In this document: positions 21,787 through 37,923 of the stretch, one piece after another | How the letters are laid out: the number at the start of each line of letters is the position of its first letter | Position numbering within the stretch: the first letter of the stretch is position 1 | Assembly: GCF_014678725.1 (NCBI RefSeq) | Contig: NZ_CP061497.1 | Span: 930,001 to 994,000 of the forward strand | Reading direction: 5' to 3' | DNA from: Thermomonas sp. XSG | GTDB taxonomy: Bacteria; Pseudomonadota; Gammaproteobacteria; Xanthomonadales; Xanthomonadaceae | DNA: 64,000 nt | The notes under the pieces: generated by a model | What the model saw: the letters and a program-made list of their open reading frames with translations, nothing else | The model's database searches: none | What the model was told of the DNA's origin: nothing | Translations under genes and position numbers: made by a program

Positions 21787-23820
21787 TCAATTATCCGCGA
21801 AGAACGCCTGCACATCCTTCACTTCGCGGGTGATGGGCAGCGGCGGCAACGACTCCAGGAAGGTGCGGCCATAGGTTTTCCCCAGCAGGCGCGGATCGCA
21901 CAGCACCAGCACGCCGCGGTCGGTCTCGGTGCGGATCAGCCGGCCGGCGCCCTGCTTGAGCGCGATGACCGCCTGCGGCAACTGCTCGTCGCGGAACGGA
22001 TTGCCGCCGGCGCGGCGGATCGCGTCCAGCCGCGCCTCGAACACCGGGTCGTCCGGTGCAGCGAACGGCAGTTTGTCGATGACCACCACGGAGAGCGCAT
22101 CACCGGCCACGTCCACCCCCTCGCGGAAGCTGGCGGTGCCCAGCAGCACGCCGTTGCCGGATTCGCGGAAGCGCTGCAGCAGCACGTGGCGCGGCTCCGT
22201 GCCCTGCACGAACAGCGGCCAGGGGCCGCCCTGCAGCGCCTCGGCGGCCTCGCGCAGCGCGCGATGCGAGGCGAACAGCAGGAAGGCGCGGCCGCCGGAG
22301 GCTTCCAGCACCGGACGCAACGCATCCAGCAGGGCCATTCCAAAGTCGCGTGACGCCGGCTCCGGCAGCCCCTTCGGCAGGTAGCACAGCGCCTGCCGGT
22401 CCCAGTCGAAAGGGCTGGGTTCGAGCAGCTCGCGGGCGTGTTCGACGCCAAGGCGCTGGGCGACGTGGTCGAAGCGCCCGGCCACCGCCAGCGTCGCCGA
22501 AGTGAACACCCAGGCCGCATTCGATGCCTCGCGATGGGCGCGCAGCGGCGCCGCCACGTCCAGCGGGGTGCGCTGCAGGCGGAAGCCGCGCGGGGTCAGT
22601 TCGTACCAGTGCACCGAAACCGAATCGGGGGGCGAAACGGGGTCAGGTTCACTTCCCGGGAGGGTTTTTTGCGATGCCAAGCAGACGCCATCGGAACGTG
22701 AACCTGACCCCGTTTCGCCCTCCTCGCCCAGCCAGCGCTGCAGCCGGCCCAGCTGGTCCTGCGCGCGCACATGGCAGGCATCGAAACCCGGCGCGGCCTG
22801 GCGCAACGGCGCCACCGCGTCGCGCAGATTTGCCAGCGACTGCACCAGCCCGTGGAAGGCGGGTTCGATGTCCACTTCGTCCAGCGCCCGCCAGGCGGTG
22901 CCGCGCAGCGGCAGGTTGTCCATCGCCGCGCGCAACGCCCGCGCCGCCTGCTCGAGGTCGCGCGCTGGCTGCTGCACGGCGGCCAGCGCGCCCGGGACCT
23001 CCTTGCATTCGGCGACCGCATCGCGCGCCAGTTCCACCAGCGGGCGTGCACCCAGCCCCTCGCCGAAGAACTGCGCGGCCAGCTCCGGCAGCTGGTGGGC
23101 CTCGTCGACGATGAACGCCTGCGCGCCCGGCAGGATCTCGCCGAAGCCTTCCTGCTTCAGCGCCAGGTCGGCCAGCAGCAGGTGGTGGTTGACCACCACC
23201 AGGTCGGCCGCCTGCGCCCGCTGGCGCGCCTGCACCACGAAACATTCGCTCCAGAACGGGCACTCGGTACCCAGGCAGTTGTCAGCGGTGGAGGTGACCA
23301 GCGGCAGCAGCGGCGAATCCTCCGCCAGCGATTCCATCTCCGACATGTCGCCGCTGCGGGTGCGCCCGCTCCAGGCGACCACGCGCTGGAACTGGCTGAT
23401 CTGCTCCCTGGAAGTAAAGCGCGGCTCGCCCTTGGCCTGCTCCATCCGGTAACGGCACAGATAGTTGGCCCGGCCCTTCAGCAGCGCGGTCTTCAGGCCG
23501 ATGCCGAGCGCATCGCGCACCCGCGGCAGATCGCGCAGGTAGAGTTGGTCCTGCAGCGCGCGAGTGCCGGTGCTGACGATGGTCTTCATTCCCGACAGCA
23601 ACGCCGGCACGAGGTAGGCGTAGGTCTTGCCGGTACCGGTGCCGGCCTCTGCCAGCAGCACCTCGCGGCGTTCGAACGCATCCGCCACCGCCACCGCCAG
23701 CCGCTGTTGCGCCGGTCGCGGGCGGAAGCCGGGCAGCGCCTGTGCCAGCGGCGATCCCTCGCCCAGCGCTTCGCGCACGGCCCGGCCCAGCCGCGTATCG
23801 GTTGCCGCCACCGGGCTCAC
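21787..23820 (-). CDS. DinG/YoaA-type Fe-S DNA helicase with an in-frame palindrome insertion
   Basis: 677-residue superfamily 2 helicase of the XPD/DinG group that unwinds DNA 5'-3'. Walker A AEAGTGTGKT (K65); four cysteines of the 4Fe-4S domain (YLCRYR, and DNCLGTECPFWSEC); DEAH box in FIVDEAHQLPEL; helicase C-terminal motifs FASHRALREAAEAL and GAGRLIRTETDRG. The length and lack of an N-terminal extension favour YoaA over DinG. Residues about 367-397 are encoded by a 91-bp palindromic element and read ETGSGSRSDG...GSEPDPVSP, a Gly/Ser/Pro-rich insert absent from the family as I know it. It overlaps mrcB by four bases. Confidence 0.92.
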   Translation of the reverse strand: MSPVAATDTRLGRAVREALGEGSPLAQALPGFRPRPAQQRLAVAVADAFERREVLLAEAGTGTGKTYAYLVPALLSGMKTIVSTGTRALQDQLYLRDLPRVRDALGIGLKTALLKGRANYLCRYRMEQAKGEPRFTSREQISQFQRVVAWSGRTRSGDMSEMESLAEDSPLLPLVTSTADNCLGTECPFWSECFVVQARQRAQAADLVVVNHHLLLADLALKQEGFGEILPGAQAFIVDEAHQLPELAAQFFGEGLGARPLVELARDAVAECKEVPGALAAVQQPARDLEQAARALRAAMDNLPLRGTAWRALDEVDIEPAFHGLVQSLANLRDAVAPLRQAAPGFDACHVRAQDQLGRLQRWLGEEGETGSGSRSDGVCLASQKTLPGSEPDPVSPPDSVSVHWYELTPRGFRLQRTPLDVAAPLRAHREASNAAWVFTSATLAVAGRFDHVAQRLGVEHARELLEPSPFDWDRQALCYLPKGLPEPASRDFGMALLDALRPVLEASGGRAFLLFASHRALREAAEALQGGPWPLFVQGTEPRHVLLQRFRESGNGVLLGTASFREGVDVAGDALSVVVIDKLPFAAPDDPVFEARLDAIRRAGGNPFRDEQLPQAVIALKQGAGRLIRTETDRGVLVLCDPRLLGKTYGRTFLESLPPLPITREVKDVQAFFADN
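22630..22720. repeat. REP-like palindromic element in the DinG-like gene
   Basis: Two perfect 23-bp inverted arms (22630-22652 and 22698-22720) flank a 45-bp centre. The arm core is GGGGTCAGGTTCAC / GTGAACCTGACCCC. The same core forms the arms of the element at 34769-34820 in hrpA. The reading frame stays open across the element and the arms encode GSGS and SEPDP. This looks like a short non-autonomous palindromic sequence, possibly mobilised by a REP-associated (RAYT-type) transposase encoded elsewhere; no transposase is in the window. Confidence 0.9.
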
Positions 23821-32680: not shown

Positions 32681-35600
32681 TCATCGTCGCCCTCCGCTTG
32701 CGCCAAGCTTTTCCACCCGCGCGGCCAGCCGCTTCGGCGAGATGCCGCCCTTGGCGCCCAGTTCCTGCGCGAACAGCGACACCCGCAGTTCCTCCAGCTC
32801 CCAGCGCAGGGCGTGGGCTTCCGGATCGGCAGGATCGGCGGCGGCCAGCGCGGCGGTGAATGGCGCCAGTTCCAGCATGCGCTGCTGGTCGCGCACCGGG
32901 TCGCGCTGGGCACGCTCGGCGCGCAGCGACATCGCCTTCAGCCAGCGCGGATATTCGGCCAGTGCCGCGGCGGGGACGTCGCGCAGGAAGCCCGGCGCGG
33001 CCAGCGCATCGAGCTGCGCCTGCATGTCGTCGAGATTGGCGCGCGCCCAGCCGATCAGCTTCGATTCCAGCTTCGCCCGCACTTCCGCCACCAACCCGAG
33101 GATGGTTTCCGCCTGCCTGAGCCGCTGCATCGCCTCGCCGAACACCGCCTTGGCGATGGCCTCGCGGCGCTGCGCGAAGGTTTCGGCATCCCGAACGTCT
33201 AGCAGGCCGTCGGCGGTAAGCGCATCGAAGGCACCATCCAGCAGGTCGGCGCGCAGGCGATCGGCGTCCTTGAGTCCGTCGCGTCGCGGCGCGGCCGACT
33301 CGATGGCGGCGTACAGCAGCGAGATCTTCGGCTGCACCGGGAGCTGCCGGCGCGCCTGCTTCAGCTTGTCGGCCAGCGCGATCGCCAGCAGCCGGCGCAC
33401 GCCCTGCGGGTGCAGGCGCTCGGCCACCGCGCGCTGGGCGTGCAGGGCCAACGAGACGGACTCGCCATCATCCTGTAGGGCCGGATACGCCGGCACGCCG
33501 CCGGCACCGGGCACCGACGCGGGGATCGGCGTGTCCGGGAACACGGTCAGGCCGGCTTGCGCCATGCCCTGCGCCGCGTGGCGGGCGAAGGCCTGCGCCG
33601 CGCGTTCACCGAAGCGGGTGCGCAGCTCTGAAAGATCCCGCGATTCGGCCAGCACCGCCTTGCCCTCCAGCAGGCGCAGGTTGGCGCGCAGGTGCGGCTC
33701 GATGGCGGCAGCGTCGAAATCCAGCGCGGAGACGTCCACGCCGGAGAGCTTCTTCAGGAACTTCGCCAGCGCGCCTTCGATGCTGTCCGCGTCCGGTTGC
33801 GCGAATGCTTCCGCGAAGGCGCGGGCCAAATCCGGCGCCGGCACGAAGTTGCGCCGCAGCGCCTTCGGCAGCGACTTGATCAGCGCCGTCGCCTTGTCTT
33901 CGACGAAGCCCGGCGCCAGCCAGGACAGCTTTGCTGCATCCAGTGCGTTGAGCAGGTGCAGCGGCACCGCCACCGTCATGCCGTCATCCACCGCGCCGGG
34001 CTCGAAGCGGTACTGCACCGCCAGCCGCGCATCACCCAGCGCGATGTAGGCCGGGAAGCGCGCGGCATCGCTCTGGTCGGCCACCAGCAGGTCGTCGCGC
34101 GACCACTCCAGCGCGGCCTTTTCATCCTTCGACAATTTGCCAACCCACGCATCCAGCGCCTGCGCGTTGTGCACGTGCGCGGGCAGCCGGTCCAGATACC
34201 AGCGCGCCTGCCAGTCCTCGTCCACCACCAGGCCGACCCGGCGCTGCTTGGCTTCTTCCTGTTGCGCCAGTTCCAGCGTGCGCAGGTTGCGTGCCAGGAA
34301 GGCGCTGCGGGTGTTGATCTCGCCGGTCAGCAGTGCCTCACGCACGAAGATCACCCGGCTTTCCTCGGGGAACAGCGCGCCGTAATGGATGGGACGCTTC
34401 GGTGCCAGCACCAGCCCGAACAGCGAAATCTGCTCGCTACCGAGCACCCGTCCCTGCGCCCGCGACCAGTGCGGATCATGCTGGCGCCGCGCCAGCAGGT
34501 GCGGCAGTTCCACGATCGCCCAGTCCGGCTCAATGGCGGCGTTGGTCAGCGCCCAGACCTTCTCGGTGTCCAGCAGGTTGGCCGACAGCACCCACGGCGG
34601 CGGCTTCGACGCCAACTTCGAGCCGGGGAACAGCTGGAACTTGCGCCCGCGCGGGCCGTCATAGACGCCCCGGTCGCCACGATTGCCGATCTGCGTGGGC
34701 AGGCCGGCAATCAGTGCGCGATGCAGCGCCGCATACGACTGGGCGCCGATCCCGCCTTCTGGCACGGCGGAAAGGGGGTCAGGTTCACTTTTCGCGGAAA
34801 GTGAACCTGACCCCCTTTCCGACCCCCTTTCCGGCCACAGCTCTTCGCACTGCAGCTTCAGCTGCCGGTGCAGCTCCCACCACTCGCGCAGGCGCAGGAA
34901 GCCGAGGAAATTACGATCGGCCCACTTGCGCAGCTGCGACTGGGTCATTGCCTCGTGCGCTTCGCGGTAGGCATGCCACAGCTTGAGGATGCCGACGAAC
35001 TCCGATTTCGCGTCAGCGAACTGCGCGTGCGCGGCGTCGGCGGCGGCGCGGGCATCGGCCGGGCGCTCGCGCGGGTCCTGGATGCCGAGGAAGCTGGCGA
35101 TCACCAGCATCTCGCGCACCACCCCGTGCACCTGCGCGGCCACCAGCATCCGCGCCAGCTTCACGTCCACCGGCAGCTTCGCCATGGTCTTGCCGATGGC
35201 AGTCAGCTTGCGATTGGCATCGACCGCGCCCAGTTCGTTCAACTGCTGCCAACCATCGGCCACCGCGCGCGAATCCGGCGGCTCCAGGAACGGAAACTGC
35301 TCGATGTCGCCCAGCCCCAGTGACAGCATCCGCAGGATCACCCCGGCCAGCGCGGCGCGACGGATCTCCGGGTCGGTGAATTCCGGCCGCGAGGCGTAGT
35401 CCGCCTCCGAATACAGGCGGAAACAAGTGCCCGGCGCGATGCGCCCGCAACGGCCCGCGCGCTGGTTGGCGCTGGCCTGCGAGACGTCCTCGATGTGCAG
35501 GCGGTCCAGCTTCTGCCGCGGACTGTAGCGCTTGACCCGGGCCACGCCGGGATCGACCACGTAGTGGATGCGCGGGACGGTCAGCGAGGTTTCCGCCACG

Positions 35601-36664
35601 TTGGTGGCCAGCACGATCCGCCGCTGCGGGCCCGGGTGGAACACGCGGTCCTGGTCCTTCGCCGACAGCCGCGCGTACAGCGGCAGCACCTCGGTATGGC
35701 GGTACTTGCGCTTCTCCAGCGCCTGATGGGCGTCGCGGATCTCGCGCTCGCCGGGCAGGAAGATCAGGGTGTCGCCGATGCCCTTGTCGCGCATGATCTC
35801 GTCGCAGGCGGCGACGATGCCGTCGATGATGCTGCGTTGCCCGCCATCCTCGCCTTCGCCCTCCAGCGGGCGATAGCGGGTCTCCACCGGATAGCCGCGC
35901 CCCTCCACGCCGACCACCGGCGCACCGCCGAAATGCGCAGCGAAACGGGCGGTGTCGATGGTGGCCGAGGTCACCACCAGCTTCAGGTCGGGCCGCTTCG
36001 GCAGCAGCTGCTTCAGGTAGCCCAGCAGGAAATCGATGTTGAGGCTGCGTTCGTGCGCCTCGTCGATGATCAGGGTGTCGTACTTCGACAGCCAGCGGTC
36101 ATTCTGGATTTCCGCCAGCAGGATGCCGTCGGTCATGAACTTGATCGCGGTCTGCTCGCTGACCGCATCGTTGAAGCGCACCTGGAAACCGACCGCGCCG
36201 CCCAGCGGCACCTGCAGCTCCTCGGCCACGCGCCGCGCCACCGAACGCGCGGCGATCCGGCGCGGCTGGGTGCAGCCGACCATGCCCGCCGCGCCGCGCC
36301 CGGCCAGCAGGCACAACTTCGGCAGCTGGGTGGTCTTGCCGCTGCCGGTTTCGCCGGCGATCACCACCACCTGGTGGCGGCGGATCAATGCCACGATCTC
36401 GTCGGCGTGCGCGGCGATCGGCAGCGTTGCATCGACCGTGGCCACGGGCAGCGCGGCGACGCGGCGCTCACGCTCGGCGATCGATGCTTGCAGTCTGCCC
36501 GCGAAGGCTTCGCGCAGGCCCGCGTCGCCCGGCTTGGCCTTCCAGCGCGCCAGCAGCCCAAGCAGGCGGCCGCGGTCGCGGGTCAGCGCGCCATCGATAT
36601 CGCGGCGGGCCCGATGCAGCGCGTCGGCGCTCGCCGGCTTGATGTTCGATTCGTCAGACACCAT
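32681..36664 (-). CDS. hrpA: ATP-dependent RNA helicase HrpA with an in-frame palindrome insertion
   Basis: DEAH/RHA helicase of 1327 residues, close to the 1300 of E. coli HrpA. It has Walker [16 protein letters not shown], the DEAH box in [18 protein letters not shown], motif III SATIDT, motif [14 protein letters not shown], an HA2/OB region and a C-terminal DUF3418 domain. HrpA rescues ribosomes collided on mRNA in E. coli. The start at 36664 (MVSDESN) fits; the frame is open far upstream through the opposite-strand dps gene, which is not coding. Residues about 612-633 come from a palindromic element (see 34769-34832) and read [18 protein letters not shown]. Confidence 0.95.
34769..34832. 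repeat. REP-like palindromic element in hrpA
   Basis: Two perfect 23-bp inverted arms (34769-34791 and 34798-34820) with a 6-base loop; a 12-base direct repeat of the right arm's end (GACCCCCTTTCC) follows at 34821-34832. The arms contain the same GGGGTCAGGTTCAC core as the element at 22630-22720. hrpA stays in frame, with the arms read as GSGS and SEPDP, the same frame as in the DinG-like gene. Confidence 0.9.
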
Positions 36665-36757
36665 GGTTCCAACAACGTGTTTATTCGCCTGCAGACAGGC
36701 GCAGAATCCGCGTATTGTCGCCGCAAGTTCCCCCCGAAGCGTGTAAAGGAGTCCGCC

Positions 36758-37294
36758 ATGCCCAAGAGCAAGACCCCCAGCAAGCCCACGAAGGCCAAGG
36801 CACCGGCCGCCAGCACCCCCGGCATCGATATCGGCATCAGCGCCAAGGATCGCGCTGGCATCGCCGACGGCCTTTCGCACTTCCTCGCCGACAGCTACAC
36901 GCTGTACCTGAAGACCCACAACTTCCACTGGAACGTGACCGGGCCGATGTTCAACGCCCTGCACACCATGTTCGAGACCCAGTACACCGAGCAGTGGACC
37001 GCGCTGGACGAGATCGCCGAGCGCATCCGCGCGCTGGGCTTCAACGCCCCCGGCAGCTATTCCGAATTCGTCCGCCTGTCCTCCATCCGGGAAGAGCCCG
37101 GCCTGACCGCCGCGCCCGCCTGGCACGACATGGTGCAGCAGCTGGTGGACGGCAACGAGGCGGTCTGCCGCACCGCCCGCAAGGTGTTGAAGGTGGCCGA
37201 TGCCGGCGGCGACGACCCGACCGCCGACCTGCTGACCCAGCGCCTGCAGACCCACGAGAAGTACGCGTGGATGCTGCGTTCGCTGCTGCAGTGA
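36758..37294 (+). CDS. dps: Dps family DNA-binding ferritin-like protein
   Basis: 178 residues. It forms a 12-mer that oxidises and stores iron and protects DNA. The ferritin-like core has [20 protein letters not shown] and the ferroxidase ligands in [20 protein letters not shown]; the N-terminal 22 residues are rich in lysine, proline and serine ([16 protein letters not shown]), the kind of tail that binds DNA. The ATG at 36758 has AAAGGAG eight bases upstream. It is divergent from hrpA (93 bp). An imperfect TATTGT box about 45 bp upstream could be its -10. Confidence 0.95.
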
Positions 37295-37923
37295 CGCACC
37301 GCGCATCTCCGGCGCGCGGGCCAGCCGTGGCGCTGCTGGCCATCGCCGCGCTCGCGGCGGGCCCGCCAGCCGCCGCCGGCGGGCCCGAGCCGCGGCTGGC
37401 TTACCTTGGCATCGCGCTGGACCAGCCACTGGCGCTGCCCGAGTGCCCGACGCGGGCGATGAGCCGCGGCATCCTGGTATACGACCCGCCGGTCCAGCCC
37501 TGCTGGCGGCAGCTGCTGGCCCCGCAACAGGACGGCGGCGGCAAGCCGCCTGCGGAAGGCCAGGTGTCGCTGCGCCAGCTTGCCGTACCGGACGCCATCG
37601 ACGCCGGTGGGGTCACGGTCAGCCTGTACGACGGCAAGGTCGCACTCGTCTCCGCCGGCGTGCCCAGGCGTGCCGACCAGGATGCGGTGTTCGCGCAGCT
37701 GCAGGCGCAATTCGGCACGCCGACCTCGCTGGAGCGTGGCGCGGCCAACAACCTCTACGGGGAAAAGGTGCCCACGCTCATGGCAAGCTGGGAACTTCCC
37801 GACGGCCGCGTGCAGCTGACCGGCGCCACCACGCTGGAAGGCAACGGCAATGTCACGGTGCTGACCCGCGCCGAAATCGAGCGGCTGAAGCAGCTGTCGG
37901 ACGCGCCCGAAGACGACGCCTGA
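37291..37923 (+). CDS. Secreted protein of unknown function
   Basis: 210 residues from a GTG that overlaps the dps stop (GTGA), which implies translational coupling to dps. The first 30 residues form a signal peptide (basic start, then [21 protein letters not shown]). The mature part begins [21 protein letters not shown] and ends with an acidic tail (SDAPEDDA). I do not recognise a domain. Two cysteines (LPECP and VQPCWRQ) could pair. The start is inferred from the overlap and the signal peptide; no ATG exists near it in frame. Confidence 0.75.

Follow-up and report, generated by a model that had tools for sequence, protein, structure and literature searches.

Within a DNA repair helicase gene of Thermomonas sp. 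XSG lies a long palindrome across which the reading frame stays open. This raises the questions of what kind of element the palindrome is, how it may have come to lie within a coding sequence, and what its position there means. The window analysed is a stretch of 64,000 nt (contig NZ_CP061497.1, positions 930,001 to 994,000, from the genome designated G000); coordinates refer to it unless another sequence is named. The features concerned are the following.

21787..23820, minus strand: yoaA, DinG/XPD-type DNA repair helicase, 677 aa (ORF and NCBIfam)
22630..22652, no strand assigned: left perfect arm of the yoaA palindrome, 23 nt, holding the TIR-type end GAAACGGGGTCAG
22653..22697, no strand assigned: centre of the yoaA palindrome, 45 nt, with a homologue inverted in place in two close relatives (39/45 identical once turned)
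22698..22720, no strand assigned: right perfect arm of the yoaA palindrome, 23 nt, read first on the coding (minus) strand
32681..37429, minus strand: hrpA, ATP-dependent RNA helicase; the HrpA model spans residues 278-1573 of a 1582-aa ORF
34768..34821, no strand assigned: short-centre palindrome in hrpA, of the yoaA arm family, with 27-nt arms (96%)

Palindromes in the window and its genome

The initial annotation had described two perfect 23-bp arms around a 45-bp centre, in an open frame within a DinG/YoaA helicase, and the arm and ORF coordinates agree with this exactly. The left arm, GGGCGAAACGGGGTCAGGTTCAC, has its exact complement in the right arm; when extended to 22627-22658 and 22692-22723, the arms are 91% complementary. 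The ORF is unbroken across the palindrome and is identified by NCBIfam as YoaA (831 bits, cut-off 680); the insert corresponds to approximately residues 367-397, between '..RLQRWLGEEG' and 'HWYELTPRGF'.

A chance palindrome can be ruled out on several grounds. Among 37 inverted repeats found in the window, that in yoaA is first in the list and that in hrpA second, and among the best 25 of the 37 these are the only two with arms of more than 20 nt at 90% or above. The yoaA palindrome folds 7.5 sd better than 200 shuffles. The arm core has six matches in the window with at most one mismatch, where 0.78 are expected; genome-wide (3.05 Mb), the core GGGTCAGGTTCAC has 13 exact 13-mer matches, against 0 for the reversed control, so it clearly recurs, its occurring nowhere else having been named beforehand as counter-evidence. 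An assembly artefact is unlikely, because G000 is a single contig and the turned centre is common to two separate relatives.

The hrpA palindrome, beside which a partial outer repeat of the arm extends to 34833, shares both the arm core and the reading frame of that in yoaA, as had been observed at the outset. In-frame elements in these two helicases are real, but two is too low a count: in G000, two-arm palindromes with the same core and in the same frame are found in four helicase genes (yoaA, hrpA, priA, and lhr). An in-frame palindrome with a variant GAGTCAC arm lies in icmF, and one further variant palindrome is intergenic; exact single arms away from the transposase gene (below) appear to be outside genes. 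The idea that only helicases are targets was rejected, because icmF, ispA, scpB, and mpl also have inserts when other genomes are included. At the 3′ end of nrdR (G000 1144271-1144339, locus L204), a GAGTCAC-type palindrome forms a new protein tail, with the stop codon TGA inside an arm.

The arms, their reading frame, and a Y1 transposase

A Y1 transposase gene had been suggested as a thing to look for, and G000 has a single one (one PF01797 Y1_Tnp match, 51 bits against a cut-off of 23; the ORF includes NHVH and YIDLNP), flanked by arms of the yoaA type: one on the left, at genome position 302442, and inverted ones on the right, at 303230 (exact) and 303329 (one mismatch). The sequence GGGGTCAGGTTCACTT is present on both sides in inverted orientation, and the first letters of the arm, GGGGTCAG, agree with the TIRYT motif GGGGWSAS. 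The proposed REP-like character did not hold up in the classical (GTAG) sense: the arms are the terminal inverted repeats of a TIRYT-like gene, and by eye they are of the GAAANGGGGTCAG kind, with no GT(A/G)G foot of a self-complementary REP and with single arms that are not self-complementary. The transposase scores 61.8, below the cut-off of 80 for the NCBIfam RAYT equivalog.

Because the same arms flank the only Y1 transposase gene, the most fitting reading of the yoaA insert is a non-autonomous mini-element of the TIRYT kind. Such elements are probably kept in frame at tolerant joints, in linkers that are refilled by turnover. The insert (MITE- or REPIN-like) would be built from a pair of terminal repeats, in inverted orientation, of a TIRYT-type Y1 (HUH) transposase; this enzyme would move the palindrome, probably as a single-stranded hairpin. 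Coding copies would survive only at a tolerant joint, whether an inter-domain linker, a variable loop, or a C-terminal tail, and survival would also need a length that keeps the frame and arms read as hydrophilic residues, not in the LTPF frame or with a stop. Occupants would then diverge, change arms, flip, and be replaced, so that the same few linkers would be refilled. Several observations count against this reading: the centres of separate copies are mostly unrelated, where copying of one master element predicts otherwise, and, as set out below, some genomes with no Y1_Tnp match have filled sites and one arm family has no transposase among those seen.

Of 25 genomes from the genus, 18 have a Y1_Tnp match; among the seven in which it is absent, some (G249, G296, and G301) have filled or formerly filled sites. 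There are 24 transposase loci in the genus, and a motif search gave an ORF for 19 of them: eight have one arm family on both sides, six have it on one side, two have only distant or other arms, and for three none was found. The arm families at these transposases are GGTTCAC, GGGACAATT, GAGTCGAC, and GAGTCATTG, and at least four arm families have a Y1 transposase with matching arms in the genus. GAGTCAC arms, the type found in icmF and in hrpA linker 2, were not seen at any of the 19 transposase ORFs. Arms of the type GGGGACGGAGGG, read from C-terminal peptides, stand outside this flank survey. In L243, L251, and L241, the stop-to-stop frames of the transposases extend across an arm at one end or at both (for example RGSESTFYLISEKVDSDP, KGTEGIK).

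It had also been proposed that the in-gene copies share one consistent frame, in which the arms always encode GSGS and SEPDP. The right arm is read x-D-P or x-D-T in 40 of 40 in-gene copies (by eye; 31 checked), though the LTPF frame is open as well. For the left arm, again by eye, the reading is G-S or V-S in ScpB and the helicases, and G-Q or C-Q in icmF and ispA. The consistent GSGS/SEPDP frame is borne out for the helicases and the ScpB tail, but not for icmF, ispA, and mpl, with the left arm in another frame (GQ/CQ); other arm families in the GSGS..SEPDP frame give other residues. The consistent choice of frame looks like selection for hydrophilic linkers.

Recurrent sites and their occupants

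Enumeration by pattern alone, which detects only copies with intact 12-nt ends, gave 14 short-centre palindromes (enumerated in 8 genomes) and 49 long-centre ones (in 25 genomes); one is common to both sets, making 62. Forty of the 62 are in frame, at ten sites in seven genes: yoaA (6), hrpA (10), priA (3), lhr (3), icmF (13, in two linkers), ispA (2), and the C-terminal tail of scpB (3). Helicases hold 22 of these 40. The other 22 palindromes are outside genes or beside a transposase, the calls being made from open frames and codon-position GC; one of those scored as non-gene (G183, L342 9006-9077) adjoins a transposase and is spanned by a weak open frame. Pfam identifies ScpB, a B12-binding/MeaB protein, and a polyprenyl synthetase, the first and last of these confirmed in one genome each and the other genes being assigned by shared sequence, as well as a Mur ligase in a separate MAG. 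This last, from a Pseudomonadota MAG, is a Mur ligase family gene (mpl by reading) with an in-frame palindrome at L084 7236-7274. In three genomes with other arms (G225, G270, and G237), 10 of 19 palindromes are in the five genes initially identified in G000, with a binomial probability of ~2e-18, calculated from an approximate genome share of 0.55% for the five genes, entered by hand; this value is too small, because some copies share ancestry and are not independent, but the direction is clear.

The concentration might also mean that some sequence, structure, or process at a few linkers draws elements in, rather than their being tolerated there; the linker DNA might be recognized, for example, or single-stranded DNA might be accessible in these genes. 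Targeted insertion is possible, if somewhat doubtful. In its favor, ten sites hold all 40 in-gene copies, and a Chao1 estimate on hand-counted site-family combinations is 10.3 sites; hrpA linker 1 is common to different arm families, and even to other kinds of repeat; and Arenimonas malthae, too, has a palindrome at icmF site A. The ends of the lhr copies, however, differ by some nucleotides when compared by eye, and nearly all Arenimonas copies are outside genes: among the matches listed (80 of 108 stretches) there are 38 palindromes in 34 loci, of which just one was found in a gene, the A. malthae copy just mentioned, whose site is shared with the window's genus (the Arenimonas pattern, GGGTCAGNNTCAC, is narrower than that used for the genus, and 5 of the 38 are too near the end of a stretch for a two-sided check). 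Given this proportion, 1 of 38 among the matches listed, concentration within genes appears to be particular to the window's genus, and tolerance alone does not explain the high in-gene share there.

Roughly 14 of the 38 Arenimonas palindromes among the matches listed have convergent genes on either side, as judged from a coarse frame call, in the manner of a two-way terminator; their inner stems, among the same matches, vary between copies yet are largely self-complementary. Near-identical palindromes of 38-39 bp with GGGTCAGAGTCACGTTAA occur in a MAG titled Thalassotalea (L068, L078, L083, L089, L091, L095, and L113).

The yoaA site could be read in 24 of the 25 genus genomes. Eleven have a palindrome or likely remnant, representing at least three arm families, and none was seen in 13; orthologues without the insert thus exist, as had been anticipated. 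The other counter-evidence named beforehand, presence of the insert at this site in most orthologues of other families, was not encountered in the comparison, which extends to the genus genomes. Clear copies have arms of the GGGGTCAGGTTCAC type (G000, G260, G301, and G303), GGTGTCAGGGACAATTTCC (G237, with a diverged form in G249), or GGGGTCAGAGTCGCC (G270). Linkers 1 and 2 of hrpA (23 genomes read) are filled in some genomes, including by GGGGACGGAGGGAATTAAG arms and other kinds of repeat, and a third hrpA site near the C-terminus is also occupied. Occupancy of priA (23 loci in 22 genomes, 21 readable) is mixed, as for yoaA and hrpA. In lhr (13 genomes, 12 readable; the G298 match, with 59% identity and one stop, may be a paralogue), three families are found in three genomes and nine are empty. 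Every linker read in these four genes has a length that is a multiple of three.

Two other kinds of in-frame repeat, CGTCATTCCCGCGAAAGCGGGA-like and CCCTCCCCCGC..GCGGGGGAGGG-like, are found at hrpA linker 1 of G199, G280, G183, and G249, in the last of these after a GGTGTCGGGGACA arm; the kinds at this linker (CP, CC, and "other") were told apart by eye. At hrpA linker 2 of G081, G249, and G302 there is a 141-nt in-frame stretch of another kind, near-identical in all three.

Turnover, inversion, and possible function

On a 25-genome tree built from YoaA and HrpA flanks, parsimony requires at least 42 occupant changes at five helicase sites (8+12+10+9+3), with labels set by hand, decayed copies scored as their likely family, and 24, 22, 22, 18, and 12 rows; unclear remnants (priA of G212, G081, and G167; hrpA1 of G297; hrpA2 of G183) were omitted. 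Purely vertical inheritance of the inserts is disfavored by these changes.

A modified version would have one ancient insertion per site, inherited vertically, with arms altered in place by concerted change (template switching within the hairpin, or gene conversion), making the different "families" at one site descendants of one element. Two observations fit it: at icmF site B, copies with GAGTCAC arms (G000 and G212) and GGTTCAC arms (G301) have homologous centres (36/46 identical, z 7.1-8.7), and the G212 yoaA copy departs from the common arm identically on both sides. Most other same-site copies with different arms, however, have centres that are unrelated at z >4, which points to separate insertions; weak z scores mean little here, because cross-site pairs reach z 6.2, and only higher values were used. 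In the same comparison, the row for hrpA site 2 of G303 holds the site-3 copy of that genome. The lhr site is empty in nine of the 12 genomes read, and one of these has flanks 96-98% identical, although some others are only 66-80% identical in their flanks and could be paralogues. Together with the number of occupant changes, this makes descent from single ancient insertions distinctly improbable. The hairpin-forming repeats in these linkers are probably mobile.

The mini-element reading also includes flipping of occupants, and the yoaA centre provides a case. In G260 and G301 it is the reverse complement of that in G000 and G303: the 39/45 identity of G000 with the turned G260 centre scores z 12.0, and the unturned comparison 2.5; partial self-complementarity of the centres lets other unturned pairs reach z 5.2. 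By this comparison it is an inversion in place between close species, with the frame kept. Each of the 31 long in-gene copies has an open frame in its present orientation, and turning leaves the frame open in 29 of them; a turned insert keeps the frame because the two arms are coded symmetrically.

Since turning keeps the frame (as in those 29 copies, and in one inversion between species), an insert could act as a reversible switch. It is conceivable, although we think it unlikely, that a few linkers (in YoaA, HrpA, PriA, Lhr, and IcmF) are genus-wide docking sites for mobile hairpins of different repeat families, which land, flip, and displace one another there, with the insert serving as a reversible peptide switch in helicases. 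About equally unlikely is a broader usefulness, in which the helicase is tuned by the hairpin, in mRNA or DNA, or by the peptide, through self-regulation or mutator-like change. Several facts would suit such a role: four of the seven genes encode helicases, another product, ScpB, works on the chromosome, the hairpin has great stability, and the arms are intact in several species. In many species, however, the corresponding site is empty or holds a decayed copy, and occupants change rapidly. We know of no nucleic-acid role for icmF, ispA, or mpl.

Whatever their effect, the inserts, if mobile and translated, show where selfish DNA can live within genes and become protein, and they make a clear case of its repeatedly supplying new linker peptides to core enzymes. 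With gains, losses, swaps, and an inversion on record at named sites across the genus, the choice between tolerance, targeting, and function becomes directly testable.

Comparison with known systems

A literature search on in-frame palindromes, the arm sequence, TIRYTs, and helicase inserts found nothing closer than the systems below, most subscription papers being outside its coverage. The TIRYTs, or TIRtrons (Di Nocera, De Gregorio, Rocco 2013, PMC3733652), are alike in having a Y1 transposase flanked by GGGGWSAS inverted repeats, and TIR families with dimers elsewhere in some genomes are reported there; unlike here, the accessible text of that paper describes no in-frame TIR palindromes at recurrent protein linkers. 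The transposase itself probably belongs to subclass 2.1 (RAYT group 1), to judge by its motifs (NHVH, WE, and YIDLNP here; YIELNP in PMC6006769, Table 1). Genes of that subclass are described, in the part of the source available, as without identifiable REP-like structures nearby, whereas the paired arms here form long hairpins.

The initial annotation took in-frame REP-like elements in two helicases to be a means of protein expansion not generally described for xanthomonads. The phenomenon is not wholly new there, because in-frame REPs in DNA-repair genes are in print, among them recB, in which two Xanthomonas species carry different REPs in roughly the same position (PMC3733652). The same paper finds GTAG and CGTC REPs within ORFs, many in replication/repair genes, and considers flexible linkers; its authors noted the bias toward such genes in 2013 and speculated on mutator-like change for REP-tagged repair genes, the cause being left without test in the text available (PMC3733652). 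In-frame REPs in repair genes are thus already known, and what is new here is the recurrent linker hot spots, the replacement of occupants, and the inversion. The repeats are of another class, their arms having no GTAG/CGTC foot, and they add another class with a similar bias; there, REPs in other genes of the category lie at different sites (PMC3733652, as far as its available text goes), whereas here several families refill shared sites genus-wide.

Rickettsia palindromic elements, as described in PMC3733652, may be comparable, being in-frame palindromes that give an extra peptide in likely functional proteins. In the present case a transposase gene has the palindrome's arms. To our knowledge, no transposase is linked to the Rickettsia elements. 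REPINs and BIMEs resemble the present palindromes in that two inverted units make one hairpin, for which mobilization in trans by a Y1 transposase has been proposed; they differ in that single arms here are not self-complementary and the centres are mostly specific to each copy.
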